Assembly (NCBI GenBank): GCA_002737115.1 | Contig: NSHR01000034.1 | Coordinates: 1-41,281, forward strand | DNA from: Gemmatimonadota bacterium | Lineage (GTDB): Bacteria > Gemmatimonadota > Gemmatimonadetes > Gemmatimonadales > Gemmatimonadaceae | Reading direction: 5' to 3' | Length of the DNA stretch: 41,281 bases | Shown here: positions 7,700 through 33,349 of the stretch, in pieces | How the letters are laid out: every line of letters starts with the position of its first letter | Numbering within the stretch: the first letter of the stretch is position 1 | Translations under genes and position numbers: made by a program | Notes under the pieces: generated by a model | What the model saw: only the letters and a program-made list of their open reading frames with translations | Database searches by the model: none | What the model was told of the DNA's origin: nothing

Positions 7700-9409
7700 T
7701 TACTTCCGGATCGGCAACAGTTCCGAGACCGCCGATCCATCCTTGCGCGGGTCCGACGCGCCGGAGTTGATCCCCGTGGTGTAGTTGCGCATCACTGCCT
7801 GACCGGCGCCCATGCGCGTGCTTGAGTAGTCGCCGCGCATCACGATCTTGTGGCCCATGGCGGCCAGTGCCTTGAGCACGCCGTCGGGAATGCGCGACTC
7901 GAAGTTCACGTCGCATCCCGGGAATGTCTCCTTCGAGAAGCGCGGGGCATCGAGCGCGCCCTGAATGTTCATGCCGAAGTCGGCGATGTTCGACACGAAC
8001 TGCGCGTGGGCCTGCGCCTGATTCCATCCACCCATGATGCCGAACGCAACGCGCGTGTCGCCCTTTTCCATGAACGCTGGAATGATCGTGTGCAGCGGAC
8101 GCTTCCGTCCGGCGAGTACGTTCGCGCTGGCGGGATCGAAGGAGAAGCCAGCGCCACGGTTGTGCCACACAAACCCGGCATCTGCCACCGCGATACCAGC
8201 GCCAAAGCCAACCGACGAGTAATTACTCTGAATCAGGGAGATCATGTTCCCCTCCTGGTCCACCGCACTCAGGTACGTCGTGCCGTTGTCGGTCCCGCTC
8301 GGCGTGCCGGCGTCAGGGCTGCAGGTGGCCTTCGACGCATTGACCAGCTTCGCGCGTTCGGCCGCATAGGCCTTCGAGCGCATCGCATCCACTGGAATCT
8401 TCACGAAGCGCGGATCGCTGTCGTACCGCTGCATATCGGCGTACGCGAGCTTCTTCGCTTCGATCATGTGATGCAGCGCCGGCACCGAGTTGTGGCCCAT
8501 CGCGGCCAGCGGAAACGTCTCCATAATGTTGAGCATCTCGAGCGCGGCGATACCTTGCCCGTTGGGCGGCAATTCATACACGGTCCAACCGCGATACGTG
8601 GTCGAGATGGGCTCGACCCATTCGCTGTCGAACTCGGCGAGATCAGCGGCCGTCATCGTACCGCCATGCGTCTTGCTGCTGGACAACAGCTTGGCCGCCA
8701 CGGCGCCTTTGTAGAAGGCGGCGGCACCACCGGTGGCAATCTGACGATACGTCTGGGCCAACTCAGGATTCCGGAACAGCTCGCCAGCCTGCGGGAGACG
8801 CCCACCGGGCAGGAACGTCTTCGTGGTCGCCGCATCTTCACGCAGCACCTTCTCGCTGTCCTTCCAGTAGACGCTCACCACTTCACCCACCGGAAAGCCG
8901 GCCTCGGCGTAGGCGATCGACGGCGCCAGCACGTCGGCGAAGCGCTGCTTTCCAAAACGGGCGAGCAACTTCTCCCAGCCGTTCACCGCGCCCGGTACCG
9001 TAGCCGCATCGATCCCGCGCCCCGGCATGGTGGTGCGGCCCTTGGCGCGCAGATGCTCGACGGTGAGCCCCTTGGGCGCCCATCCGGAGGCATTCAGTCC
9101 GTACAGCTTGCCCGACTTGGCTTCGTAGATGATCGCGAACAGATCACCGCCAATGCCGTCGTTCATCGGCGCGACGAGTCCCATCATGGCGTTCATGGCC
9201 ACCGCCGCGTCGATCGCATTGCCACCGCGCTCGAGAATGGACGCGCCAACCTGCGAGGCCAGTACGCTCTCGCTGGCGACGACGCCCTGCTTGGACGTCA
9301 CCATGGATCGCGACTGTGAGCGATCCTGGGCCCCGACCAGCGACGGGGCGAACACCGGTGCAAGCACGGTGGCGAGAGCGGCAACACGGAACGTCAAACG
9401 AGCAATCAT
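7700..9409 (-). CDS. ggt: Gamma-glutamyltransferase, exported
   Basis: A 569-residue Ntn-hydrolase proenzyme that transfers or hydrolyses the gamma-glutamyl group of glutathione and related peptides in the periplasm. Residues 1-28 are a signal peptide ending VGAQ. The large-subunit region includes GVVASESVLASQVGA and GGNAIDAAVA. Autocleavage is expected before T377 in DNGTTYLSAVD, the start of the small subunit. The later GIMGGWNQAQAHAQFV replaces the GSPGG loop of E. coli Ggt, a difference seen in many family members annotated from non-enterics. The ATG at 9409 is preceded by GGAG; the longer frame upstream lacks a signal. It is divergent from the His-rich gene at 9622, and the 212-bp gap between them shows no gene. 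Confidence 0.93.
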   Translation of the reverse strand: MIARLTFRVAALATVLAPVFAPSLVGAQDRSQSRSMVTSKQGVVASESVLASQVGASILERGGNAIDAAVAMNAMMGLVAPMNDGIGGDLFAIIYEAKSGKLYGLNASGWAPKGLTVEHLRAKGRTTMPGRGIDAATVPGAVNGWEKLLARFGKQRFADVLAPSIAYAEAGFPVGEVVSVYWKDSEKVLREDAATTKTFLPGGRLPQAGELFRNPELAQTYRQIATGGAAAFYKGAVAAKLLSSSKTHGGTMTAADLAEFDSEWVEPISTTYRGWTVYELPPNGQGIAALEMLNIMETFPLAAMGHNSVPALHHMIEAKKLAYADMQRYDSDPRFVKIPVDAMRSKAYAAERAKLVNASKATCSPDAGTPSGTDNGTTYLSAVDQEGNMISLIQSNYSSVGFGAGIAVADAGFVWHNRGAGFSFDPASANVLAGRKRPLHTIIPAFMEKGDTRVAFGIMGGWNQAQAHAQFVSNIADFGMNIQGALDAPRFSKETFPGCDVNFESRIPDGVLKALAAMGHKIVMRGDYSSTRMGAGQAVMRNYTTGINSGASDPRKDGSAVSELLPIRK

Positions 9410-9608
9410 CCTGCAACTCCGAGAATGGAGGACGGGTTCGGAACCGGCGACGATGTGGAATATGCGGTCACGGCGTAGCGCGGCGCAGCGGTGGATCCAC
9501 CACGACCGCCCGGATTTGATGACACCGTCTCCACCGGAGGTCGCGGCCGACGGCCAGCGCGCCGTAGCGCACCTCCGGTCCCGCCTCCACTTACGCGGTA
9601 CCCTCAAC

Positions 9609-9614
9609 TAGTAT
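9609..9614 (+). promoter_or_regulatory. -10 box of the His-rich gene locus
   Basis: TAGTAT ends 7 nt before the ATG at 9622, with no Shine-Dalgarno sequence. This would give a leaderless mRNA for the first gene of the three-gene secreted locus. Confidence 0.4.
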
Positions 9615-9621
9615 CCATCTC

Positions 9622-10008
9622 ATGAGGGTGAGCCGACACATCGCCGCGATCGCGCTTTTCGGAGTGCAGCTGCTGCAGGGAGTACTCCCCGCGGCCGGTG
9701 CGGTGTGCGAACGCGAGGCGGCGGCGCCTCCGACCCCCGCGCTCGTGCGCGCCGCACAGCCCCCAGCGGCCACCGGCTCGCATCACCACCACGATGCCGC
9801 GCCCCCCCACGAATCGGCGCCCGCCGAGCATCCGCAGGCGCCAACGGCCTGTTCCATGGCCATGGCCTGCACCGTGGTTGGCGTGCTGAGTCCGGCGGTC
9901 GTGGTCTCGATCGTCGACGTCGCCATCGATGTGCATCGTCCCGTACATGCGGCCGACTGGCCCGTGTCGCTCGACCTCGCCCCCGAGCCCCCGCCGCCGC
10001 GAGGCTGA
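9622..10008 (+). CDS. Small secreted His-rich protein, putative metal binder
   Basis: A 128-residue protein I cannot assign to a family. Residues 1-27 are a convincing signal peptide (RVSRHIAAIALFGVQ ... AAGA). The mature part is Pro/Ala-rich and probably disordered. It carries HHHHD at 54-58, further His at 63 and 70, and a CSMAMAC motif at 77-83, a Cys/Met cluster of a type that can bind Cu(I). A hydrophobic stretch follows (VVGVLSPAVVVSIVDVAID, 85-103), which could be a buried strand or a membrane segment. It is followed by a predicted outer-membrane barrel and a second His/Met-rich secreted protein, so a periplasmic metal-handling role is the best guess. No homologue confirms it. Confidence 0.65.
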   Translation: MRVSRHIAAIALFGVQLLQGVLPAAGAVCEREAAAPPTPALVRAAQPPAATGSHHHHDAAPPHESAPAEHPQAPTACSMAMACTVVGVLSPAVVVSIVDVAIDVHRPVHAADWPVSLDLAPEPPPPRG

Positions 10009-10014
10009 GCATCG

Positions 10015-10041
10015 GGCTCTCCGGTCTCTCCGGATGGAGCC
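10015..10041 (+). terminator. Hairpin just after the His-rich gene
   Basis: GGCTCTCCGG pairs with CCGGA and GAGCC around a TCTCT loop, with a 2-nt bulge. It begins 6 nt after the stop codon and has no T-tract. It may be a weak terminator, attenuator or mRNA-stabilising stem before the downstream barrel gene. Confidence 0.35.
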
Positions 10042-10149
10042 GTCTCAACGTCCTCGCCGTGGATGTCCGCCCGCGCGCTGTGCGCGGGGCGCCGGCATTC
10101 GCCATTTGGTGCGCTGCCCGGCGGCGCACCGCTCGCCCCTGTCCTTCCC

Positions 10150-11025
10150 ATGAATCTGTTTTCGAACCCCGCACGCCTCGACGCGTCGCGTTCTGGCATG
10201 GCCAGACTGCTCGTGGCCGCGATCACCGTGGCCGCGATCATCGTCGCCGCCCCCGTCTCGTCGCTCTCGGCGCAAACCGACTACTACAACACCGATGCCG
10301 GACGCCCCGTCCGCATTGAAGACGCCTATGCCATCGAACGACGCGCGGTCGAGTTGCAGCTCGCGCCATTTCGTCTCGAGCGTGCCCGCGGCGGCAGCTA
10401 CCGCTGGGGCATGGAACCCGAGTTCGCCGTCGGCCTGTTCCCACGCACTCAAGTGGAGATCGGATTTCCGATCGCGCACATGGAGGGCGTGGCCGGGACG
10501 CGTCGTACCGCTCTCGGCGGCATCGACGCCTCGGTGCTTTACAACTTGAACGCCGAGACACGCCTACCCGCGCTCGCGATCGTGGCTGACGTGTTGCTCC
10601 CGGTCGGCCCGATGGCGCCCGACAAGGCGTATCCCTCGTTCAAGGCGATCGCCACGAAAACATTGTCGTGGGCCCGGTTTCACGTGAACGGACAAATGAC
10701 CATCGGCGATGCCCCGCGCGTTGCCGCCGCCAACAGCGAAACGACCGCGTCGGCCGAACTGTCACGATGGCTGGTCGGCGTGGCGGTGGATCGCACGCTG
10801 CCGTTGCGTTCGCTCCTGCTGACCGCCGAGATCGTGACGTCGCAGCCCCTCGATGCGACCGAACCACAGGCCTGGGACGTGGCCGGTGGCACGCGCTACC
10901 AACTGAGCCCACGCCTCGCCGTCGATGGCGGCGGTGGCTACCGCATATCGGGCGCCGATGCTGGCTGGTTCGTCACCGCCGGCGGCGCCGTGTCGCTTGG
11001 ACTCCCTTGGTCTTCCCGCCGCTAA
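10150..11025 (+). CDS. Predicted outer-membrane beta-barrel protein (transporter-like)
   Basis: A 291-residue exported protein. The first 42 residues form a long signal peptide whose hydrophobic core ends SSLSAQ; an internal ATG at 10198 would give a shorter, equally good signal. The mature chain alternates polar and hydrophobic residues in strand-sized stretches (YRWGMEPEFAVGLFPRTQV, EIVTSQPLDATEPQAWDV) and ends in ...VSLGLPWSSRR. It resembles the family annotated as 'transporter' or 'MetA-pathway of phenol degradation' outer-membrane proteins, but weakly. It lies between two putative metal-binding secreted proteins and is 15 nt upstream of the second, so the pair is likely co-transcribed. 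Its transport substrate cannot be stated. Confidence 0.7.
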   Translation: MNLFSNPARLDASRSGMARLLVAAITVAAIIVAAPVSSLSAQTDYYNTDAGRPVRIEDAYAIERRAVELQLAPFRLERARGGSYRWGMEPEFAVGLFPRTQVEIGFPIAHMEGVAGTRRTALGGIDASVLYNLNAETRLPALAIVADVLLPVGPMAPDKAYPSFKAIATKTLSWARFHVNGQMTIGDAPRVAAANSETTASAELSRWLVGVAVDRTLPLRSLLLTAEIVTSQPLDATEPQAWDVAGGTRYQLSPRLAVDGGGGYRISGADAGWFVTAGGAVSLGLPWSSRR

Positions 11026-11040
11026 CTACGAGCCGATCCC

Positions 11041-12618
11041 ATGATCTCTATTCGTCTGGCGCGCGGTCTCGTGACCGCCGCGCTCACGCTCGCCGCCTTC
11101 GCCACGCCGCGCGTCGCGCAGGCCCAGTGGACCACCACGTACGAACAGTTCTATCTCCAGGCCTCGCACAACTGGACGTTTCGCAACCAGTACGCATCGG
11201 CCGATCGACTGTTCAATGCCTTCGACTACGGCCACGCGATTCTGTACGAAACGCTCTGGACCAAGCCCAACGCACCCGCGTCGCGGCTCGAGGTAAAGGA
11301 ATTCGACTATCTCACTAAGACCGTACTGGTCAAACCGCCACGCCTCCCGCTCGAGGAGGCCGCCATCGAGCCCAAGTACGCGCAGCTCGCGCCGGAAGCC
11401 AAGGTGATGTTCGACTGGGCGCATTTGTTGCACCGGCAACTGTACGATGTGCTGGCCGACGAACGCCTGAACGACGCGCAGCGCGACCGCGAAGCCCAGC
11501 GCATCATCGTGTACTACCGCAGCCGCCCCGACCTGGCATTCAGCTCGAAGCCCAAGACGATGGCGCTGATGCAAGAGCAGTCGTACTCCCTCGCCTTCCG
11601 CAAGAAGTATCCGAAGTTCAACGGACTCATCTGGGGCTATCACTGGCTACAGGTCGGGCTGTACGAACCGCTGCTGGTTGGCAAAACCGTGGCCGCGAAG
11701 CAGGCTGGTGTTCGCGCCACGGTTGCCCGGTTCTGGCAGATGGTGGATGGGGCGCCGACGGCACTGCCGTACCAGATGCCGATGACGGCGACGGTGGCGC
11801 CCGCGTTCGCCGCGCGGTTTCCAGAGGCCGCGATCATCTTCGACAACCTGCACTCCATGCATGACGTGGTCTCGGACATTCTGAGTAACGACGCCGTGCC
11901 TCGTGACCGCAAGCGCACCGAGATCCTGCGCGCCGCGCGCCTGTATCGCGACGACACGTCGTACGTGATGCCGGTGGCGGCGTGGCTCGCGATGTCGAAC
12001 CATATGGGCATCGAGAACATGGGCGGGCCATCGGCGGGATTCCTGCCCACGCTCCCCACGCCCACGGTGACCTCTGGTGCTGTGATGACGCACGACTGGG
12101 AGACCGGTGCCATGAAGGGCTTCACGTATGGCTCGGCAGCGTCCGGAGTCGCTGCCGGTGGTGAGCACGCGGGTCACGACATGGCCGCCATGGCCGCCAT
12201 GGCCATGCCAACGACCGTGCCGTCAACGACACCCGCAGCCAACGACAGCGCCGACGTGGCCGCGCTGGTGCACCGTTTCCACGACGCGCTCGAACAGGGC
12301 GACAGTGTCGCGGCGATCGGTCTCCTCGCGGACGACGCGGAGATTCTGGAGAGTGGGTCGGTGGAAACGGTGGCGGACTACCGCGCGCATCACCTGCCCG
12401 CCGACATCGCGCTCGCGAAGGCGATCAAGAGCACACGGGCGCCCCTCCGCGTGCTCGTACAGGGCGACCTCGCCACCAGCACCTCCACGTCGACAACCAA
12501 GGGCACGTTCCGTGACCGCGCCATCGACTCGGCCGGCGCTGAACTCATCGTGGCCCGACGGACGTCGCAAGGGTGGCGGATCTCAGCCATTCACTGGTCG
12601 TCACGGCGACGCAACTGA
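11041..12618 (+). CDS. Secreted two-domain protein: His-rich helical domain, His/Met linker, NTF2-like domain
   Basis: A 525-residue exported protein with a signal peptide ending VAQAQ (about residue 29). Residues 30-350 are an unrecognised, probably helical domain with repeated His in helix-like contexts: FDYGHAILYE (H65), FDWAHLLHRQLYD (H128, H131), GYHWLQVGLYEP (H201) and FDNLHSMHDVVSD (H271, H274). A linker at 374-390, GEHAGHDMAAMAAMAMP, is rich in His and Met. Residues about 403-520 match the SnoaL/DUF4440-type NTF2-like fold (VAALVHRFHDALEQGD ... GWRISAIHW). The composition suggests a periplasmic metal- or heme-binding protein, with the NTF2 domain as a small-ligand or assembly module. 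Function is inference; the N-terminal domain deserves structure-based comparison. Confidence 0.7.
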   Translation: MISIRLARGLVTAALTLAAFATPRVAQAQWTTTYEQFYLQASHNWTFRNQYASADRLFNAFDYGHAILYETLWTKPNAPASRLEVKEFDYLTKTVLVKPPRLPLEEAAIEPKYAQLAPEAKVMFDWAHLLHRQLYDVLADERLNDAQRDREAQRIIVYYRSRPDLAFSSKPKTMALMQEQSYSLAFRKKYPKFNGLIWGYHWLQVGLYEPLLVGKTVAAKQAGVRATVARFWQMVDGAPTALPYQMPMTATVAPAFAARFPEAAIIFDNLHSMHDVVSDILSNDAVPRDRKRTEILRAARLYRDDTSYVMPVAAWLAMSNHMGIENMGGPSAGFLPTLPTPTVTSGAVMTHDWETGAMKGFTYGSAASGVAAGGEHAGHDMAAMAAMAMPTTVPSTTPAANDSADVAALVHRFHDALEQGDSVAAIGLLADDAEILESGSVETVADYRAHHLPADIALAKAIKSTRAPLRVLVQGDLATSTSTSTTKGTFRDRAIDSAGAELIVARRTSQGWRISAIHWSSRRRN

Positions 12619-12745
12619 GTCCCGGGGCCGCATTCGCGGGACCGCATTCGGCCAATTTCCCCGCTAGCACCTCCTTCTCGTATGGCCGACCGGTTAGGTT
12701 CCGTGAGAAGTTCTTTTTTGACGCCCATCATCGAAGGTTTTGCCC

Positions 12746-13138
12746 ATGCCGGACGTGCTGCAGGAATTTTCCTTCGTTGACCGTGGTCGGACGTTTCAGT
12801 GTCGTGTCGCCGCGTCGCGCGTAACGGGACCGGATCCGTGGTGGTGGTTCGAGGTGTCCACCGAACAGCACCAGCGTCACGCGCCGTTCCGCGCCGACCC
12901 CGATGACACGTACGACGTCGTCCAGCAGCGCATGGTGGCCTACTACGACAATTTGCTTGAGCGTCGTGCTGCCCCGGTGGTCAAGAAGTGGAGCCGCCCG
13001 GCACCACAGGCCGCTGCCACCAGTGACGAAGGCTCGGACGTGATCGAGATGGACGCCGAGACGGAAGAAGTCGTGGCCGAGATCGAGGGCGAGATCGCGG
13101 AACTCCCGGCTGAAGACGAGGAAGCCACAGCGGCCTGA
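12746..13138 (+). CDS. Acidic-tailed hypothetical protein
   Basis: A 130-residue cytoplasmic protein with no family I recognise. Residues 1-70 look like a compact alpha/beta fold with aromatic and charged residues (DPWWWFEVSTEQHQRHAPF, TYDVVQQRMVAYYDNLLERR). Residues 90-130 form a highly acidic tail (EMDAETEEVVAEIEGEIAEL) that may be helical or disordered. The ATG at 12746 is preceded by GAAGG at about 8 nt; an in-frame TTG two codons earlier is less likely. The 127 bp upstream contain a repeated CCGCATTCG (12629-12655 area) but no clear terminator or promoter. The gene ends about 100 bp before the molybdoenzyme operon and need not belong to it. Confidence 0.65.
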   Translation: MPDVLQEFSFVDRGRTFQCRVAASRVTGPDPWWWFEVSTEQHQRHAPFRADPDDTYDVVQQRMVAYYDNLLERRAAPVVKKWSRPAPQAAATSDEGSDVIEMDAETEEVVAEIEGEIAELPAEDEEATAA

Positions 13139-13236
13139 GTTGTCCCTAGCTCTGGACGCCCCGACCGCGCGGCACGAGATTCAGGGATGGATTGTCGATC
13201 GACACTCCGCCCCCTGCCCCCGTCCCGCCTGGTCCT

Positions 13237-13755
13237 ATGCCGATTACGCTCAAGGTCAACGGCACACCGCGCACGCTCGACGTGCCTGCCGACATGCCCC
13301 TCTTGTGGGCGCTCCGCGATGAACTTGATCTCAAAGGCACCAAGTTCGGGTGTGGCATAGCCCGTTGCGGCGCCTGCACGGTGCATGTGAACGGCGTCGC
13401 GACGCGCTCCTGCAACACGCCGGTCTCTCGCGTCGCGACGGCCGACATCACGACCATTGAAGGGCTGTCCCCCGATGGTCTGCATGCGGTGCAGCAGGCG
13501 TGGGAAGAACTCGACGTGCCACAGTGCGGCTACTGTCAGGCCGGCCAGATGATGGGTGCCGCCGCGCTGCTGGCGAAGACGCCGAAACCGACCGACGCCG
13601 AGATCGACACGGCGCTCAACACGAATCTCTGCCGCTGCGCCACGTACATCCGCATTCGCAACGCGGTGCACCGCGCCGCCGAGATTAAGTCGGGCGCGAA
13701 GCCGGCCGTGGGTGGATCGACTCCGTCGAAGAACGGCTCCCCTGACAACCGCTGA
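13237..13755 (+). CDS. iorA: Isoquinoline 1-oxidoreductase-type small subunit, 2x[2Fe-2S]
   Basis: A 172-residue electron-transfer subunit of a xanthine-oxidase-family molybdoenzyme. The N-terminal plant-type 2Fe-2S site is [17 protein letters not shown] plus a later Cys in TRSC. The C-terminal helical 2Fe-2S site is CGYCQAGQM and NLCRCATY. All eight Cys are present. No FAD subunit is encoded nearby, as in IorAB and related aldehyde dehydrogenases that pass electrons to cytochromes. The chosen ATG has no good ribosome site; a TTG at 13192 would add 15 Pro-rich residues. The catalytic subunit follows after 10 nt and carries the Tat signal, so this subunit is probably exported as a passenger of the folded complex. 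Confidence 0.9.
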
Positions 13756-13765
13756 GGCCACGACG

Positions 13766-15999
13766 ATGACGACCCAATCCGACATGCCGGGCGTAAGCCG
13801 CCGTGGCTTTTTGCGCGCCACCGCGCTCGCCGGCGGTGGCATTCTGCTGGCCAGCTACGCTGAGCCGCTCGAGGCACTCGAGCGCCTGGGATTACACACG
13901 GGTTTGCCGCCGATGGCCGATCCGATGCTCAGTGCCTTCGTGCGCATCACGCCCGACGGCATTGTCACCATCACCGCGAAGAATCCCGAAATCGGTCAGG
14001 GCATCAAGACGATGCTGCCCATGCTGATCGCCGAGGAGCTCGACGTGGACTGGGCGAACGTGCGCGTGGAGCAGGCCGACTTCGACCCCACCAAGTATCA
14101 GGCGCAGATCGCCGGTGGCAGCACCGCGACGCCCACCAACTGGCTGCCGCAGCGCCGGGTCGGTGCCGCCGCGCGCGCCATGCTGGTGTCGGCCGCCGCA
14201 GCGCAATGGAACGTGCCCGCCGCCGAACTGGAAACCGAGAAGGGCGTCGTGCATCACCGCGCCTCGAAGCGGTCGGCCACGTATGGCTCGCTGGCCAGCG
14301 CCGCGGTGTCGGTGACGCCGCCCGATCTGGCCACGGTGCCACTCAAGGACCCCAAGAAGTTCACCATCATCGGCACGCGCACGAAGACCGTCGGACTGCG
14401 CGATATCCTGATGGGCAAGCCGATGTTCGGCATCGATGTCACGGTGCCCAACATGCACTATGCCACGTTCGTGAAGAGCCCCGTGTTCGCCGCCAAGGTG
14501 GCGAGTGCGAACCTCGACGCGATCAAGGCGATGCCGGGCGTCACGCACGCGTTTGTGGTGGAAGGCACGACGAATCTGCAGGGGCTCATGCCCGGCGTTG
14601 CCATCATCGGCAAGAACTGGTGGATGGTGCAGCAGGCACGGAAGAAGCTCGTGGTCGAATGGGCCGCCCACCCCACGTCACAGCAGTCAAGTGCGGGCTT
14701 TGCGGCCAAGGCGGCTGAGTTCTTCGCGGGCACGCCGCAGCGCACGATTCGCAACGATGGGGATTTCGACGCGGCCATCAAGGGCGCGGCCAAGGTCCTG
14801 AAGGCGGAGTACAGCTATCCGTTCATCTCGCACGCGCCGCTCGAGCCGCAGGGGTGCACCGCGCATGTCACGGCCGACAAATGTGAGCTCTGGACCACAT
14901 CGCAGACGCCGCAAGGTGGACGCGCGCTCGTGGCCACCACGCTCGGCATCAAGGAAGAACAAATCACGATGCACATGGTGCGTGCCGGCGGCGGATTCGG
15001 TCGTCGCCTGTATAACGATCCGCTGGTGGAAGCGGCGTGGATCGCGCGCGAAGCCAAGGTGCCGGTGAAGTTGCTGTGGACGCGTGAAGACGACCTGCAG
15101 CATGACATGTTCCGTCCGGGCGGCTTTCACTCGTTCACCGGTGGCCTCGATGCCAGCGGCAAACTGATCGCGTTCCGCAATCACTTCGCCACGTTCGGCG
15201 AAGGCGAACGGTTTGCACCGAGCGCCGACATCGGCCCCACCGAGTATCCGGCGCGCTTCGTGCCGAATCTCAAGATGGACGTGTCGGTGATGCCGCTGGG
15301 CGTGCCCACCGGTGCCCTGCGTGCGCCACGCTCCAACGCGCTGTCGTTCGCGTTCCAGGGCTTCATCGACGAGTGCGCCGTGGCGGCGGGCAAGGATCCG
15401 CTGCAGTTCCGCATCGACACGCTCAAGGCGGAGATCACGCCCACCGCGCCGCTCACGCCGCAGCAACAGGCGGGGCAGATGGATGCGCAGCGCGTGATCG
15501 GCATTCTCGAGAAGGCGCGCGAGGTGTCGGGCTGGGGCAAGACCAAGCTGCCCAAGGGCACGGGCATGGGCTGCGCCTTCTACTTCAGCCATCGCGGCTA
15601 CTTCGCCGAAGTCGTGCAGGTCACGGTGAGCAAGGCCGGCGACGTGAAGGTGGACAAGGTGTGGGCGATCGGTGACGTCGGCAGCGATATCATCAATCCC
15701 AACCACGCTGAGCAGCAGGTACAGGGCGCGGCAATGGATGGTATGAGCCAGGCGTACGGACAGGAGATCACGTTCACCGCCGGCAAGGTGGACCAGACGA
15801 ACTTCAACAACTATCCGATGCTGCGCATCCGTCAGGCGCCGCCCATCGAAGTGCATTTCGTGAAAACGGCGTTCTCGCCCACGGGCATCGGTGAGCCGGC
15901 ATTGCCGCCCGTCGTGCCCGCGATGATCAATGCGATCTACGCGGCCACCGGCAAGCGCGTACGTCAGATCCCGCTGTCGAAAGTCGATCTCAAGTGGAG

Positions 16000-16003
<4 letters not shown>
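13766..16003 (+). CDS. iorB: Isoquinoline 1-oxidoreductase-type molybdopterin subunit, Tat-exported
   Basis: A 745-residue catalytic subunit that oxidises an aldehyde or N-heterocycle with water-derived oxygen, using Mo-pterin cytosine dinucleotide in characterised relatives. A Tat signal is seen at residues 11-30 (SRRGFLRATAL). Cofactor-binding landmarks include NPEIGQGIKTMLPMLIAEEL, AGGSTAT, VRAGGGFGRRLYNDP and PTGALRAPRSN. The catalytic Glu is E710 in GIGEPALPPVVPA. The length is that of the periplasmic IorB class, not of the larger cytosolic xanthine dehydrogenases. No MocA/XdhC-type maturation factor or cytochrome c partner is adjacent, so cofactor insertion and electron acceptor must come from elsewhere. 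The substrate is unknown. Confidence 0.9.
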
Positions 16004-27033: not shown

Positions 27034-27720
27034 ATGCAGGATGTGATCAGCGCGTTAGGGGGATTTCGGGGGGTGCGGGCCGAGTTACTGGTGGCGCTGA
27101 AGAAAGCGCAGCCGCTCACGGCCCACGAGCTCGGGGAACAGTTCGGCCTCACGGCCAACGGACTCCGGCGCTACCTCAAGGCCCTCGAAGAGGATGGTCT
27201 GGTGCGCTACGAGCGCGCGGTGCATGGCGTCGGCGCGCCCGTGTTCGCGTATTCGCTCGCGCCAGCCGGAGAAGCGCTCTTCCCACGAAGCTACGTGTCG
27301 GTGCTGGCCACGGCGCTCGATGCACTGCGGGCCGAGCAGGGAACGGCGGCGGTGGCGGGCGTGTTGGAGGCGGAGTGGGATCGACTGGCCGACGAGGCCG
27401 GGCCGGTGCTGGATGCATTACCGCTCGAAGAGCGCATGCCGTTGGTGGCCGAGTTGTTGACGGCGAAGGGCTACATGGCGGAGGCCGTGCAGGTCGACCG
27501 CGCCGACGGAAAGCCCGCCGTGACCACGCTGCGCATTCACAATTGTGCGGTGCGTGAAATCGCCGATCGGTTCCCGGAAGCGTGTGCGGCGGAAGCAAAG
27601 TTTGTGGAGCGGCTGCTCGGTGTTCCTCTGGTGCGCGGCGCGCATCGGAAGGACGGCTGTGGCCGATGTGAATACGACGTGTCGAGCCACCTTTTGGCCG
27701 AGAAACAGGAGCAGGAATGA
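27034..27720 (+). CDS. sufR: SufR-like iron-sulfur transcriptional repressor
   Basis: A 228-residue regulator. Residues 9-75 are a winged helix ([33 protein letters not shown]). The C-terminal sensory part contains four Cys, C171, C184, C209 and C212, in [15 protein letters not shown] and [10 protein letters not shown]; the first pair is spaced by 12 residues as in SufR proteins. SufR is a homodimeric repressor that binds DNA when its iron-sulfur cluster is present and releases the suf operon when clusters are scarce or damaged. It is the first gene of the operon, next to a matching operator, and overlaps sufB by 4 bp (ATGA). A different iron-sulfur-responsive ArsR/DeoR-type regulator is possible but less likely. 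Confidence 0.87.
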
Positions 27721-29150
27721 GTTCCACTATCGAGTCGCTCGTCAATCGCGAGTATCAATACGGCTTCACGACGGATTTCGAGGCAGAGACGCTCCCGCCC
27801 GGTCTGTCCGAGGAGACGGTACGTTTCATTTCGGCGAAAAAGGGCGAGCCGCAGTGGCTGCTCGACTGGCGCCTGAAGGCGTTCCGGCGCTGGCTCACCA
27901 CGAAGGAGCCGCACTGGGGCAACGTGCAGTATCCGCCCATCGACTATCAGGCCGCGAGCTATTACTCGGCGCCCAAGTCGGTGAAGCCGTTGGCGTCGCT
28001 CGACGACGTCGATCCGCAACTGCTGGAGATGTACAGCAAGCTCGGCATCTCGCTTAGCGAACAAAAGCGCATGAACGGCGTGGCCGTCGATGCCGTGATC
28101 GATTCGGTGTCGGTGGGCACGACGTATAAAGAAGAGCTGAGCAAGTTCGGCATCATCTTCATGTCGTTCAGCGAGGCGGTGCGCGAGCATCCGGATTTAG
28201 TGCAGAAGTACCTCGGCTCGGTGGTGCCGTACAGCGACAACTTCTTCGCGGCGCTGAACAGCGCGGTGTTCTCGGACGGATCGTTCTGCTACATCCCGAA
28301 GGGGGTGCGGTGCCCGATGGACTTGAGCACGTACTTCCGCATCAATGCGGCGGACACGGGCCAGTTCGAGCGCACGCTGATCATCGCCGATGAAGGCTCG
28401 TACGTGAGCTATCTGGAAGGGTGCACCGCGCCCAAGCGCGACACCAACCAGTTGCACGCGGCCATCGTGGAGATCGTCGCGCTCGACGGCGCCACGGTGA
28501 AGTACAGCACGGTGCAGAACTGGTATGCCGGCGACGAGAACGGCCTCGGCGGCATTTACAACTTCGTCACCAAGCGCGCCAAGGCGATGGCGAATGCGAA
28601 GGTGTCGTGGACACAGGTAGAAACCGGTTCGGCCATCACGTGGAAGTATCCGAGCGTGATTCTACAGGGCGACAACAGTGTCGGCGAGTTCTACTCGGTG
28701 GCGGTGGCGAGCAAGATGCAGCAGGCCGACACGGGCACGAAGATGATCCACATCGGCCGCAACACGAGGTCCACCATCGTGTCGAAGGGTATCTCGGCGA
28801 TGAAGGGGCAGAACAGCTACCGCGGCAAGGTGCAGATTCTGCCGAAGGCCGAGGGCGCGCGCAACTATACGCAGTGCGACTCCATGCTGGTGGGTAATGC
28901 CTGCGGGGCGCACACGTTCCCGTACGTCGAGGTGGGGAACAACAGCGCCATTCTCGAGCACGAAGCGAGCACGAGCAAGATCGGCGAAGATCAAATCTTC
29001 TACCTCAAGGCGCGCGGGCTCGACGCTGAACAGGCGGTCTCGATGATCGTGAGCGGTTTTTGCAAGGAAGTCTTTAAGGAGCTGCCGATGGAGTTCGCGC
29101 TCGAAGCGCAGCAGCTGCTTGGCATCACGCTTGAAGGATCCGTCGGGTAA
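27717..29150 (+). CDS. sufB: SufB, Fe-S scaffold subunit of SufBCD
   Basis: A 477-residue beta-helix scaffold protein; with SufC and SufD it assembles nascent iron-sulfur clusters. Residues corresponding to functional E. coli SufB residues are conserved at a constant offset of 18: C236 (E. coli C254) in [10 protein letters not shown]387 (C405) in NYTQCDSM and E416 (E434) in ILEHEASTS. The N-terminal [10 protein letters not shown] and QYPPIDYQ motifs are typical. The start overlaps the sufR stop in ATGA. It is followed by a 41-nt gap to sufC, the longest but one in the operon, which has no ribosome site or terminator. Confidence 0.97.
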
Positions 29151-29191
29151 CCGACGTCCTCCCTACTTCGTACCCCTTACTTCGCTCTTAT

Positions 29192-29938
29192 ATGCTGCAG
29201 ATTACTGATCTCCACGCTGCCATCGACGGCAAGCCGATTCTCAAGGGTATCACGCTCACCGTGAACGCCGGTGAAGTGCATGCCGTCATGGGCCCGAACG
29301 GCTCGGGCAAGAGCACACTGGCCCAGGTGCTGGCGGGCCATCCGGCCTATGAAGTCACCAGCGGCTCCGTGACGTACAACGGCGTGGACCTGCTGGAGCT
29401 GGCGCCGGAAGTGCGCGCACAGAACGGCGTGTTCCTGGCGTTTCAGTACCCGATCGAGATCCCGGGCGTGACCAACGCGTATTTCCTGCGGGCCGCATAC
29501 AACGCGATTCGCAAGTCGAAGGGGCTCGATGAAGTCGATCCGATGGAGTTTCTCGACGTGGTTGAGGAGAAGCTCCAGCTGGTGGACATGGATGTGAGCA
29601 TGATGAGCCGCTCGGTCAACGTGGGCTTCTCTGGTGGTGAGAAGAAGCGGAACGAGATCCTGCAGATGGCCGTGCTGCAGCCGATGCTCGCCATTCTTGA
29701 TGAAACCGACTCCGGTCTCGACATCGACGCCTTGCGCATCGTGGCGAACGGCGTGAACGCGCTCAAGCGCCCGGACAACGCGGCGATCGTGGTGACGCAC
29801 TACCAGCGCCTGCTCAACTATATCGTGCCCGATTACGTGCACGTGCTGGCCGGTGGCCGCATCGTGAAGTCGGGCGACAAGTCGCTCGCGCTGGAGCTCG
29901 AAGCCCGCGGATACGACTGGGTGTTGGAGGCGGCGTGA
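29192..29938 (+). CDS. sufC: SufC, ATPase of SufBCD
   Basis: A 248-residue ABC-type ATPase that drives conformational change in SufB-SufD during cluster assembly. Walker A is GPNGSGKS (34-41), the signature is FSGGEKKRNE (146-155) and Walker B is MLAILDETDSGLDID with D170 and E171. The Q-loop is AFQYPIEIPGV. The SGGEKKRNEI and ETDSGLDIDA sequences are SufC-specific compared with transport ABC ATPases. The ATG has no Shine-Dalgarno sequence. Its TGA overlaps the GTG of sufD. Confidence 0.97.
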   Translation: MLQITDLHAAIDGKPILKGITLTVNAGEVHAVMGPNGSGKSTLAQVLAGHPAYEVTSGSVTYNGVDLLELAPEVRAQNGVFLAFQYPIEIPGVTNAYFLRAAYNAIRKSKGLDEVDPMEFLDVVEEKLQLVDMDVSMMSRSVNVGFSGGEKKRNEILQMAVLQPMLAILDETDSGLDIDALRIVANGVNALKRPDNAAIVVTHYQRLLNYIVPDYVHVLAGGRIVKSGDKSLALELEARGYDWVLEAA

Positions 29939-31278
29939 GCGCGTCGGTGAGCTCCCCGGTGAGCAGCACATTGCACTTCCAGGCGCAGGCCAGCGCGTTC
30001 GCGTCGGCGGCGTCCGACCGCGCCCCTGCCCCGCTCGCCACGTTGCGCGCCGCGGGAGCCGAGGCGTTCGCGCGCCTGGGCTTCCCGACCACGCGCAGCG
30101 AAGACTGGAAATACACGAGTGTGTCGTCGATCGCGAACACGCCGTTCGTGGCCGCGCAGAACCGTGCCGTGGGCACGCTCGACGCCGCGGCACTTGAGCC
30201 GTACACGTTCGGTGGCACGTGGCCGTTGGTGGTGTTCTTGAACGGCCGCTATGCGCCGGCGTTGTCGTCGATCGGCGCGCTACCCGATGGCGTGCGGGTG
30301 ATGGATCTGGCGACGGCCGCCGTACAGGAGCCGGAGCTACTGGCGCGTCATCTCGGCGTGGCGGCTCCGGCCGACCGCGATGGGTTCACGGCGCTCAACG
30401 CCGCCTTCGCCGGCGAGGGCGTGCTGATTCATGTGGCGAAGGAGATGGTAACCGACGTGCCGGTGCACATCCTGCATGTGACCGACGCCAACGGCGCCGG
30501 CGTGATGAGCCACGCGCGTCATCTGCTGGTGGCCGAGCGGCATGCCAAGGCCTCGGTGATCGAGAGCTACGTGTCGCTGGCCGACGTGTCGTACTTCACG
30601 AACGCGGTAGTCGAAGTCTCGGTGGACGACGGCGCCACGCTGCAGCTGCTGCGCATTCAGCGGGAGTCCCCCACGGCGTTTCATGTGGGCACCGTGGAAG
30701 CGCGTCAGGGCCGCGACAGTCACTTCATGGCCTTCACGTTCCAGACCGGTGCGGCGCTCTCGCGCAGCAACGTATTCACGGTTTTGGCCGGCGAGGGCTG
30801 CGGCACGACGCTGAACGGCCTGTACATGCTGGACAGTGCACAGCACGGCGATCACCAGACGCGCGTGGAGCATGTGGCGCCGCATTGTTTCAGCCGCGAG
30901 GCGTACAAGGGCCTGCTCGACGACGCGTCGCACGGCGTGTTCAACGGCAAGGTGTATGTGCACCCCGAAGCGCAGAAGACCGACGGCAAGCAGACCAATA
31001 ACACGCTGCTGCTGTCGAAGGACGCGCAGATCGACACCAAGCCGCAGCTCGAGATTTTTGCGGACGATGTGAAGTGCACGCACGGGGCCACCGTGGGCCG
31101 CATCGACGAGACGGCGCTGTTCTACCTGAAGAGCCGCGGCGTGGGTCAGCTGCTGGCGCGCCAGCTGCTCATGTACGCGTTCGCTGCCGACGTGCTCGAA
31201 ACGATCGAGAACGAGGCCGTGAAGGAAGCGCTGGAGCAGCTGACGATGGTGCGGTTTACGGGTGAGACCAGTCACTGA
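29935..31278 (+). CDS. sufD: SufD, SufBCD subunit
   Basis: A 447-residue SufB paralogue that completes the scaffold. The N-terminal half contains GFPTTRSEDWKYTSVSSI, a standard SufD segment; the C-terminal half contains FADDVKCTHGATVGRID, where C381 and H383 match the conserved Cys/His region at the SufB-SufD interface (E. coli C358/H360). The start is a GTG overlapping the sufC stop (GTGA). It is slightly longer than E. coli SufD owing to an Ala-rich N-terminus. Confidence 0.96.
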   Translation: MSASVSSPVSSTLHFQAQASAFASAASDRAPAPLATLRAAGAEAFARLGFPTTRSEDWKYTSVSSIANTPFVAAQNRAVGTLDAAALEPYTFGGTWPLVVFLNGRYAPALSSIGALPDGVRVMDLATAAVQEPELLARHLGVAAPADRDGFTALNAAFAGEGVLIHVAKEMVTDVPVHILHVTDANGAGVMSHARHLLVAERHAKASVIESYVSLADVSYFTNAVVEVSVDDGATLQLLRIQRESPTAFHVGTVEARQGRDSHFMAFTFQTGAALSRSNVFTVLAGEGCGTTLNGLYMLDSAQHGDHQTRVEHVAPHCFSREAYKGLLDDASHGVFNGKVYVHPEAQKTDGKQTNNTLLLSKDAQIDTKPQLEIFADDVKCTHGATVGRIDETALFYLKSRGVGQLLARQLLMYAFAADVLETIENEAVKEALEQLTMVRFTGETSH

Positions 31279-31283
31279 GCATC

Positions 31284-31745
31284 ATGTCGGATCTACAAGA
31301 GCTGTACCAGTCCGTCATTCTCGACCACAACCGCAAGCCGCGTAATTTCGGCGTGCTCGAGGGGTCGAATCGCGCCGCGGACGGCAAGAATCCGTTGTGC
31401 GGTGACGAAGTCCATGTGGCGTTGCACGTGGATGGCGACGTGATCACCGACGTCAAGTTCACAGGGCACGGCTGTGCGATTTCCAAGGCGTCGGCATCGC
31501 TCATGACGACGGCGGTGAAGGGCAAGACGCGCGAGGAGGCGGAGGCGTTGTTCGCGCGCTTTCACGCGCTGGTGCTCGGGCAGGACGCCGGCGGCGGGAA
31601 GGATCTGGGGCCGCTCGTAGTGTTTTCGGGGGTATCGCGCTTTCCGGTGCGCGTGAAGTGTGCCTCGCTGGCGTGGCACACGCTCAAGGCCGCGCTGGAC
31701 GACGGGCCGACCGATGCGGTGCCTTCCATCAGTACCGAAGCGTGA
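31284..31745 (+). CDS. sufU: SufU, zinc-dependent sulfur acceptor (first copy)
   Basis: A 153-residue IscU-fold protein. Ligands match B. subtilis SufU (C41, D43, C66, C128) at an offset of 2: C39 and D41 in NPLCGDEV, C64 in GHGCAISKASASLM and C126 in VKCASLAWH. The SufU-specific insertion between the second and third Cys is present, which separates it from IscU scaffolds, and the IscU His ligand is replaced. SufU accepts persulfide from SufS through a zinc-swapped complex. It starts 5 nt after sufD and overlaps the Rieske gene by 4 bp (GTGA). Confidence 0.93.
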   Translation: MSDLQELYQSVILDHNRKPRNFGVLEGSNRAADGKNPLCGDEVHVALHVDGDVITDVKFTGHGCAISKASASLMTTAVKGKTREEAEALFARFHALVLGQDAGGGKDLGPLVVFSGVSRFPVRVKCASLAWHTLKAALDDGPTDAVPSISTEA

Positions 31746-32074
31746 GTGGTCCGGACGGGTTTGTTCGGGCGGCGGCGTTGCGGGAGATCGAGGCAGGGCT
31801 TCCGCTGGGTGTGGTGATGCGCGACGGGCGGCGGGTGTGTCTGGTGCGCGACGGCGACGCGGTGCACGCGGTGGACGATCGGTGTCCGCACCGGGACTTC
31901 GCGATCTCCGGCGGTGATCTGGTGGAACCGTGTGTGCTCGAGTGTCCCTGGCACGGCGCGCGCTTCGATGTGCGCACCGGTGCCGTGCTCTCCGGTCCTT
32001 CCACCGACGATCTGGGGACGTATCCCGTGCACGTCGTCGATGGTGATGTCTTTGTCGGGCCGCGTCGCACGTAG
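31742..32074 (+). CDS. Rieske-type [2Fe-2S] ferredoxin in the suf operon
   Basis: A 110-residue single-domain Rieske protein. Cluster ligands are C48 and H50 in DDRCPHRDF and C68 and H71 in LECPWHGARFD. The sequence resembles the small ferredoxin components of ring-hydroxylating dioxygenases (NirD/BphF type), but no oxygenase is nearby. Comparable Rieske genes occur in actinobacterial suf operons, where they are candidate electron donors for cluster assembly. It starts at a GTG inside the sufU stop (GTGA), so it is a true operon member. No signal peptide or membrane anchor is present, so it is cytoplasmic. Confidence 0.92.
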   Translation: MSGPDGFVRAAALREIEAGLPLGVVMRDGRRVCLVRDGDAVHAVDDRCPHRDFAISGGDLVEPCVLECPWHGARFDVRTGAVLSGPSTDDLGTYPVHVVDGDVFVGPRRT

Positions 32075-32122
32075 TTCGCCGTGCGTGGTATGCTGGTAGC
32101 CCGTTCGTATTCGAGAGGTTCT

Positions 32123-33349
32123 ATGTCGATCGCGTCTTTGGCGCCCCGCGCTGATTTTCCGTTGCTCGCCGCTAACCCGGCGATGCACTACCTCGACTCG
32201 GCGGCCACGTCGCAGAAGCCGGCGGCGATGCTCGATGCGTTGCGCCACTTCTACGCCACGTCGAACGCCAATCCGCATCGTGGGGCGTACGCGCTGTCGG
32301 CGCTGGCCACCGACGCGTACCATGATGCCCGCGCGACGATCGCGCGCTTCGTGGGTGTGGCCGATGCCGACTGCCTGATCTTCACGCGCGGCACCACCGA
32401 GTCGATGAACCTCGTGGCGTCGAGCTGGGGCGGCGCGCATGTCGGACCCGGTGATGAGATCGTGGTGTCGGCGCTCGAGCACCATGCCAACTTCGTGCCC
32501 TGGCAGCAGCTTGCGCTGCGCACGGGCGCCACGCTGCGCATCGTGGAGCTGACGCCCACGCAGACGATCGACCTCGACATGCTGCGCGACGTGGTCGGGG
32601 CCCGCACCAAGATCGTGGCCATCACGCATGTGTCGAACGCCGTGGGCTCCATCACCCCGCTGCACGACGTGGTGCGCATCGTGCGCGCGCGCTCGGCGGC
32701 GGTGATCGTGGTCGATGGTGCCCAAGCGGTACCGCACCTGGCCGTGAATTTCGACGCGCTCGATATCGACTTCTATGCGTTCAGCGGCCACAAGCTGCTG
32801 GGCCCGATGGGCATCGGCGTGCTGGTGGGGCGCCGGACGCTGCTGGAGGCGATGCCGCCGTATCAGTTTGGCGGCGACATGATCGAGTGGGTGCGCGACA
32901 CCGACAGCACCTGGAACGTGCTCCCGCACAAGTTTGAGGCCGGCACCCCCAATGCGGCCGACGCCGTGGCCCTGGCGGCCGCTGTACGCTATCTGGGCGG
33001 CCTGGACATGGCGCAGGTGCGTGCGCACGAGATTGCGCTTCTGGAGGCCGCTGAGGCCCGTGTGCGGGCCCTGCCGGGTGTCACCGTATACGGACCACCG
33101 CCGGCCCAGCGCAGTGGCGTGCTCAGCTTCTCGCTGGCCGACGTGCATCCGCACGACTTGGCCACGATTCTCGATCAGCACGGGGTCTGCATCCGAGCGG
33201 GGCATCACTGCGCGCAGCCGCTGATGCGGCGCTTGGGTGTGAGCGCGACGGCGCGGGCCAGCTTCTACGTGTACAGCGATGGCCGTGATGTGGACGCCCT
33301 CGTTGGGGCCCTCACGGCGGCGCAGCAGCTGTTCGCGACGGTCGATTGA
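32123..33349 (+). CDS. sufS: SufS, group II cysteine desulfurase
   Basis: A 408-residue PLP enzyme that removes sulfur from cysteine, producing alanine and an enzyme persulfide that is passed to SufU. The PLP Lys is K224 in FSGHKLLGPMGIG; EHHANFVPW contains the cofactor-stacking His; the catalytic Cys is C363 in RAGHHCAQPLMRRLG, on the short, ordered loop typical of group II enzymes. The ATG at 32123 was preferred because GAGAGG lies 5 nt upstream, the clearest ribosome site in the operon. Its TGA overlaps the TTG start of the second sufU. Confidence 0.96.
   Translation: MSIASLAPRADFPLLAANPAMHYLDSAATSQKPAAMLDALRHFYATSNANPHRGAYALSALATDAYHDARATIARFVGVADADCLIFTRGTTESMNLVASSWGGAHVGPGDEIVVSALEHHANFVPWQQLALRTGATLRIVELTPTQTIDLDMLRDVVGARTKIVAITHVSNAVGSITPLHDVVRIVRARSAAVIVVDGAQAVPHLAVNFDALDIDFYAFSGHKLLGPMGIGVLVGRRTLLEAMPPYQFGGDMIEWVRDTDSTWNVLPHKFEAGTPNAADAVALAAAVRYLGGLDMAQVRAHEIALLEAAEARVRALPGVTVYGPPPAQRSGVLSFSLADVHPHDLATILDQHGVCIRAGHHCAQPLMRRLGVSATARASFYVYSDGRDVDALVGALTAAQQLFATVD

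Follow-up and report, generated by a model that had tools for sequence, protein, structure and literature searches.

Three adjacent exported ORFs of a Gemmatimonadota bacterium, which we call P1, P2, and P3, probably encode a new copper-handling module of the cell envelope, because in related genomes the set sits among copper-export genes and behind copper-sensor operator DNA. From these sequence comparisons, we consider it fairly likely that the three proteins act on copper in the periplasm and outer membrane and belong to the CsoR copper regulon of the lineage. The link to copper is strong at the level of the family and indirect for the window, by which we mean the whole stretch of 41,281 nucleotides analyzed here; the window alone proves nothing on copper. 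The copper role guessed at in the first-pass annotation thus gained support from comparative evidence, namely, synteny and CsoR operators, and not from the window itself.

The locus occupies positions 9622 to 12618 on the plus strand, as do all the features given for it below. P1 (9622 to 10008) encodes an exported His-rich peptide of 128 aa, P2 (10150 to 11025) a predicted outer membrane beta-barrel of 291 aa, and P3 (11041 to 12618) an exported protein of 525 aa with two domains. The intergenic gaps are 141 bp (P1-P2) and 15 bp (P2-P3), and an alternative start of P2 at 10063, giving 320 aa, is possible. As the first-pass annotation had proposed, the three ORFs are found at this place and each begins with a hydrophobic, signal-like N terminus, to which the models of P2 and P3 add an N-terminal helix. 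Upstream, P1 is flanked by a divergent gamma-glutamyltranspeptidase gene. A Pfam scan of the 19 other ORFs of the window recovered no copper family, bearing out the earlier statement that no standard copper gene is present, and CopC and CopD were likewise absent beside the module among the scanned ORFs.

The evidence for copper comes from the relatives. Homologues were sought in 84,980 species genomes, and of the 203 relatives recovered, the best 80 were taken as loci, nearly all of them titled Gemmatimonadota. P2 lies directly 5' of P3N, the N-terminal domain of P3, in 73 of these best 80 of 203, the exceptions being mostly contig-end cuts. The comparison shows that P2 and P3N form a conserved pair of genes. 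Whether accompanied by P1 or not, this pair is repeatedly found next to genes predicted to encode CopA, a C-H-C CsoR, CopC-CopD, a CopZ-like protein, a cupredoxin, or a CusA-type RND pump. Among the 80 loci, markers were found for Cu-ATPase-like proteins (29 loci), CsoR (16), CopC-CopD (13), CusA-like RND pumps (12), and cupredoxins (6), counts that come from tblastn with one query each and may include related ATPases and RND pumps. Representative neighbors were verified with Pfam as CsoR (PF02583, 1.7e-27), HMA plus E1-E2 ATPase, CopC plus CopD, cupredoxin, DUF305, and HMA proteins. In a stricter test with the curated model TIGR01511 (Cu(I) P1B-ATPase), matches above the cut-off lay at most 10 kb from P3N in 12 of 28 loci from 26 genomes, against 0.34 expected (nominal Poisson P of 3e-15, which overstates independence, several genomes having inherited one arrangement). 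The copper genes are arranged as a divergent copA-csoR pair on the 5' side, collinearly on the 5' side, with copA on the 3' side, or with CopC-CopD directly 3' (13 loci), and this difference in orientation between groups argues for repeated association with copper genes. In many related loci, the window included, the locus DNA examined held no copper gene. In many Gemmatimonas loci, a two-domain protein of the glyoxalase/bleomycin-resistance family (a cluster with nine loci; e.g., L035:8003-8941) is encoded between copA-csoR and P1. The pair is also carried by contig CALQGY020000031.1, titled Candidatus Kuenenia stuttgartiensis; the matching genome groups in the genus of the window, and the title looks wrong.

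Operator sequences point to the same regulon. Type-2 CsoR operators have the form TAC-X9-GTA with N5 (PMC3902906). In 935 kb of locus DNA, we counted 16 copies of the motif TACCC-N5-GGGTA, which has this form, against 0.2 expected from shuffles; elsewhere in the genus, it is present only about once per whole genome. Exact operators stand directly 5' of the module in eight Gemmatimonadota loci: about 30 to 50 bp before P1 in L103, L105, L111, and L115, where the DNA examined contains no copA marker, and 5' of P2 in L070, L110, L116, and L127. The CsoR proteins of the group carry Cu-type C-H-C ligands (RYC...HLKHC in G029, G024, G017, and G003). These loci resemble the CsoR-CopA (copZA) regulon of Streptomyces lividans in TAC-X9-GTA sites with C/G tracts, a C-H-C CsoR, CopA, and a CopZ-like protein, and the module would add to it an outer membrane barrel, a helical protein with six conserved His residues, and a His-rich peptide, the window differing in the lack of an exact operator. 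Indeed, no exact CsoR operator was found 5' of the module in the window. A degenerate operator-like sequence, TACCCTCAACTAGTA (9599 to 9613), with two mismatches to TACCCNNNNNGGGTA, lies 8 bp before P1, but such sites are not above chance across the window (8 found versus 6.1 expected). None within two mismatches was present 5' of P1 in eight relatives, including the close L066 and L092, and an operator-like site with one mismatch precedes P1 in G029.

The window is an entire contig, and its host assembly is 57% complete. In this assembly, the single TIGR01511 match (CopA) is on a different contig, and neither a CopC domain nor a CsoR was found. Close relatives of the host possess CsoR, unlinked to the module. 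In the clade of the window, the P2-P3 pair is thus separated from copA and csoR, so that copper control in this clade is inferred.

The pair recurs in another phylum. Searching plasmids by tblastn, we found P3N homologues in two records, from Methylobacterium fujisawaense and Methylobacterium aquaticum. They are about 20% identical to P3N over the domain (63/308), and both keep all six conserved His residues, whereas the other two of the eight His residues in the window's domain are not kept. In both, a P2 homologue adjoins P3N on its 3' side, an order reversed relative to that in Gemmatimonadota; the M. fujisawaense P2 homologue has an HMM E value of 1e-41. On the M. aquaticum plasmid (L164), an exact operator (8848 to 8862) ends 18 bp before P3N (8881), and a CsoR-family gene (PF02583, 4e-22), encoding a protein without the second Cys, has its own operator at 8052. 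Near the M. fujisawaense pair, neither CsoR nor an operator was found. An ORF close to the M. aquaticum pair (L164:7630-7887) encodes a Cys-rich DUF326 (Csp-like) protein, whose NCBIfam Csp1 match (E 0.03) is below the cut-off. Conserved synteny, on which the first-pass annotation had staked its proposal, is therefore found, also in another phylum, and the genes next to the module are those of copper handling, with operators of the CsoR type.

The barrel that the first-pass annotation had predicted in the middle of the locus is reproduced by the P2 model, a 12-strand barrel (AF2 pLDDT 87, pTM 0.78). The model superposes on FapF (Z 23.9, rmsd 2.5, about 220 residues) and on the COG4313 channel Pput2725 (4rl8; Z 22.1, 220 residues, rmsd 2.5). 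P2 shares with COG4313/PF13557 channels and FapF both the 12 strands and a conserved segment before strand 1, which in P2 reads QTDYYNTDxGRPxxxEDAY. P2 itself matched no Pfam or NCBIfam profile, PF13557 (Phenol_MetA_deg) giving nothing at E values up to 1; this profile matched 23 of 62 P2 relatives (best 5.2e-6), and the P2 profile reached FapF among PDB sequences at an E value of 0.21 only. From its modeled fold, P2 is a divergent member of the COG4313/FapF/PF13557 barrel superfamily and not a CopB/PcoB protein. PcoB/CopB (7pge) resembles P2 in being a small barrel within copper gene clusters, but this assignment was rejected, since 7pge ranked only 38th in Foldseek (E 2.8e-4, TM 0.39 on the query) and the CopB Pfam profile matched none of 62 P2 family members at E values up to 0.01. 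Where the substrate of a COG4313 channel is known or has been proposed, it is a hydrophobic molecule that the channel takes up (PMC4493636). P2 is linked to its constant partner P3N and to copper genes rather than to phenol, sphingosine, or amyloid genes, and no hydrocarbon or other catabolic gene was seen as a conserved neighbor of P2 in related loci. The earlier caveat that the barrel might belong to an unrelated hydrocarbon-uptake family with its own partners thus applies to the superfamily, which includes hydrocarbon channels, and not to the partners.

P3N (11128 to 12075, aa 30 to 345) is an undescribed all-alpha domain, modeled mostly at pLDDT 93 to 99, with a tandem internal duplication, its halves aligning to each other (hhalign probability 95.8, E 8e-9). 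Each half contains three near-invariant His residues, namely, H65, H128, and H131 and H201, H271, and H274, each kept in 79 to 81 of 82 sequences, the remainder being mostly gaps. They are flanked by the near-invariant residues W126, Q133, Y135, D136, Y159, W202, Y208, D268, and N269. The six conserved His residues are most naturally read as a metal centre. Type-3 copper proteins (hemocyanin, tyrosinase) likewise present six helical His residues, three per half, and may offer an analogy for how P3N works; P3N differs from them in the spacing (H-x62-H-x2-H and H-x69-H-x2-H) and in the absence of a sequence match, the tyrosinase/hemocyanin family being recovered neither by Pfam in 63 members nor by the PDB profile search. 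More generally, the P3N region matched no Pfam family in any of the 63 members and no NCBIfam family. The P3N profile found no relative among PDB sequences (best E 0.41, taken as noise), a sequence-based result, the list of a Foldseek search with the whole P3 model having been filled by the NTF2 domain.

P3N is followed by a His/Met-rich linker (12076 to 12249, aa 346 to 403), predicted to be disordered (pLDDT below 50 at 371 to 397), which contains HAGHDMAAMAAMAM (12166 to 12207); relatives of P3 have similar His/Met-rich tails. The C-terminal domain P3C (12250 to 12612, aa 404 to 524) is an NTF2-like DUF4440 domain and gave the sole Pfam/NCBIfam match of P3 (PF14534, 30.2 bits, curated cut-off 25.2). 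Its nearest solved structure is PDB 3bb9 (Sfri_1973; Z 19.2, 118 residues at 1.4 A), which it resembles in profile and fold, P3C being distinguished by its fusion behind P3N and the linker. P3C-like domains also occur as standalone proteins near CopC (G001, G021, G022, G031, and G034). The C-terminal partner of P3N is variable, as indicated by a DUF2231 match in another member of the P3 alignment; in L083 and L055:789-3620, P3N is fused to DUF305 and not to DUF4440.

P1 contains the motifs HHHHD (9781 to 9795) and C-S-M-A-M-A-C (9850 to 9870) and ends in PEPPPPRG. Both motifs, and the His/Met linker of P3, had been cited earlier as metal-binding composition, and the P1 features recur in about 22 loci of distant species, where short, exported, His-rich peptides of the Cys-x5-Cys type with a PEPPPPR-like end are encoded 5' of P2. 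This resemblance extends far beyond the range of BLAST, which recognizes P1 within the genus only, and Pfam and NCBIfam gave no match to P1 except a single meaningless one (E 0.72). In L070 and L127, a CopZ-like ORF takes the place of P1 (HMA match confirmed for L070). Directly 5' of P2, L125 encodes an exported His/Met-rich protein (743 to 1477) of CpxP/Spy-like look with no Pfam match. We also considered that P1 might be a bufferin-like RiPP copper peptide, although no maturation gene of that kind was noticed beside it. The description of the proteins as new thus stands for P1 and P3N, which have no Pfam or NCBIfam match and on which no paper was found in the literature searched; the literature search found no paper on the P2-P3N pair either.

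We propose that, when cytoplasmic copper rises, CsoR would leave its operator and CopA would move Cu(I) into the periplasm, where P1, together with the His/Met linker in P3, may buffer it. P3N would hold copper at a six-His centre to which either half of its duplicated helical domain contributes three His residues, and P2, as a gated COG4313/FapF-like barrel, would pass copper or a copper complex across the outer membrane, most likely outward.

The same P3N residues might instead belong to an enzyme dependent on copper or another metal, with P2 passing its substrate. The six His residues would then make up either one dinuclear centre or two mononuclear ones, with the invariant Tyr, Trp, Asp, and Asn nearby, and the copper neighbors would reflect an enzyme that needs copper or detoxifies under copper stress. 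We regard this as somewhat unlikely. It would account for the near-invariant second-shell-type residues beside the six His residues and for the twin-arginine-like signal (MRTLSRRGLL) of a Methylobacterium P3N homologue, such signals being used by many cofactor-loaded proteins. Uptake of phenolics by the barrel superfamily of P2 (PMC4493636) would also suit an enzyme, but no known enzyme family matches P3N, the loci have no conserved catabolic partner, and the low-complexity His/Met tails suggest binding rather than catalysis.

Two further readings change the direction or the cargo of the barrel. P2 could admit copper or a copper chelate at low copper, P3 loading cuproenzymes or CopC-CopD. The position of CopC-CopD directly 3' of the module would be in line with such acquisition, as an import role is possible for CopCD, but the presence of CopA and of operators of the CsoR type indicates that excess copper induces the module, and we hold this role to be unlikely. 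It is quite improbable that the cargo is a hydrophobic compound or another metal and that the copper genes nearby belong to a shared stress island: the fold family of P2 and the many loci without copper neighbors are compatible with it, but even loci that lack copA, as well as a locus in another phylum, have operators directly at the promoter of the module itself. A chance meeting of three exported but unrelated His-rich proteins would agree with the failure of BLAST to recognize P1 outside the genus, yet the kept gene order, the adjacent Methylobacterium pair, and the P1-type peptides at the same place render it extremely improbable, and for P2-P3, the conserved order and the Methylobacterium pair refute it.

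As to the wider interest of the proposed copper-handling module, little is understood of how copper passes the outer membrane beyond PcoB and CusC-type routes. Here, within copper regulons across a phylum of bacteria from soil and water, and once more in Methylobacterium, a barrel has an unnamed protein with six conserved His residues as its constant partner. It is possible, if doubtful, that P3N founds a hitherto unrecognized class of periplasmic copper proteins, arisen by duplication and built around a six-His dinuclear centre, and that with P2 it forms an as-yet-unknown, CsoR-controlled outer membrane copper route common to Gemmatimonadota and some Alphaproteobacteria. Annotators gain two families to name, and experimenters gain a defined pair, whose promoters predict copper induction, for study in culturable strains.

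Elsewhere in the window, on the 3' side of P3, ORFs at 13192 to 16003 encode a 2Fe-2S protein and a molybdopterin hydroxylase subunit of the isoquinoline-oxidoreductase type, and a small acidic ORF with no Pfam match (12740 to 13138) lies between P3 and this pair. ORFs at 27717 to 33349 resemble the SUF iron-sulphur assembly genes sufB, sufC, sufD, and sufS, as judged by eye from their translations.
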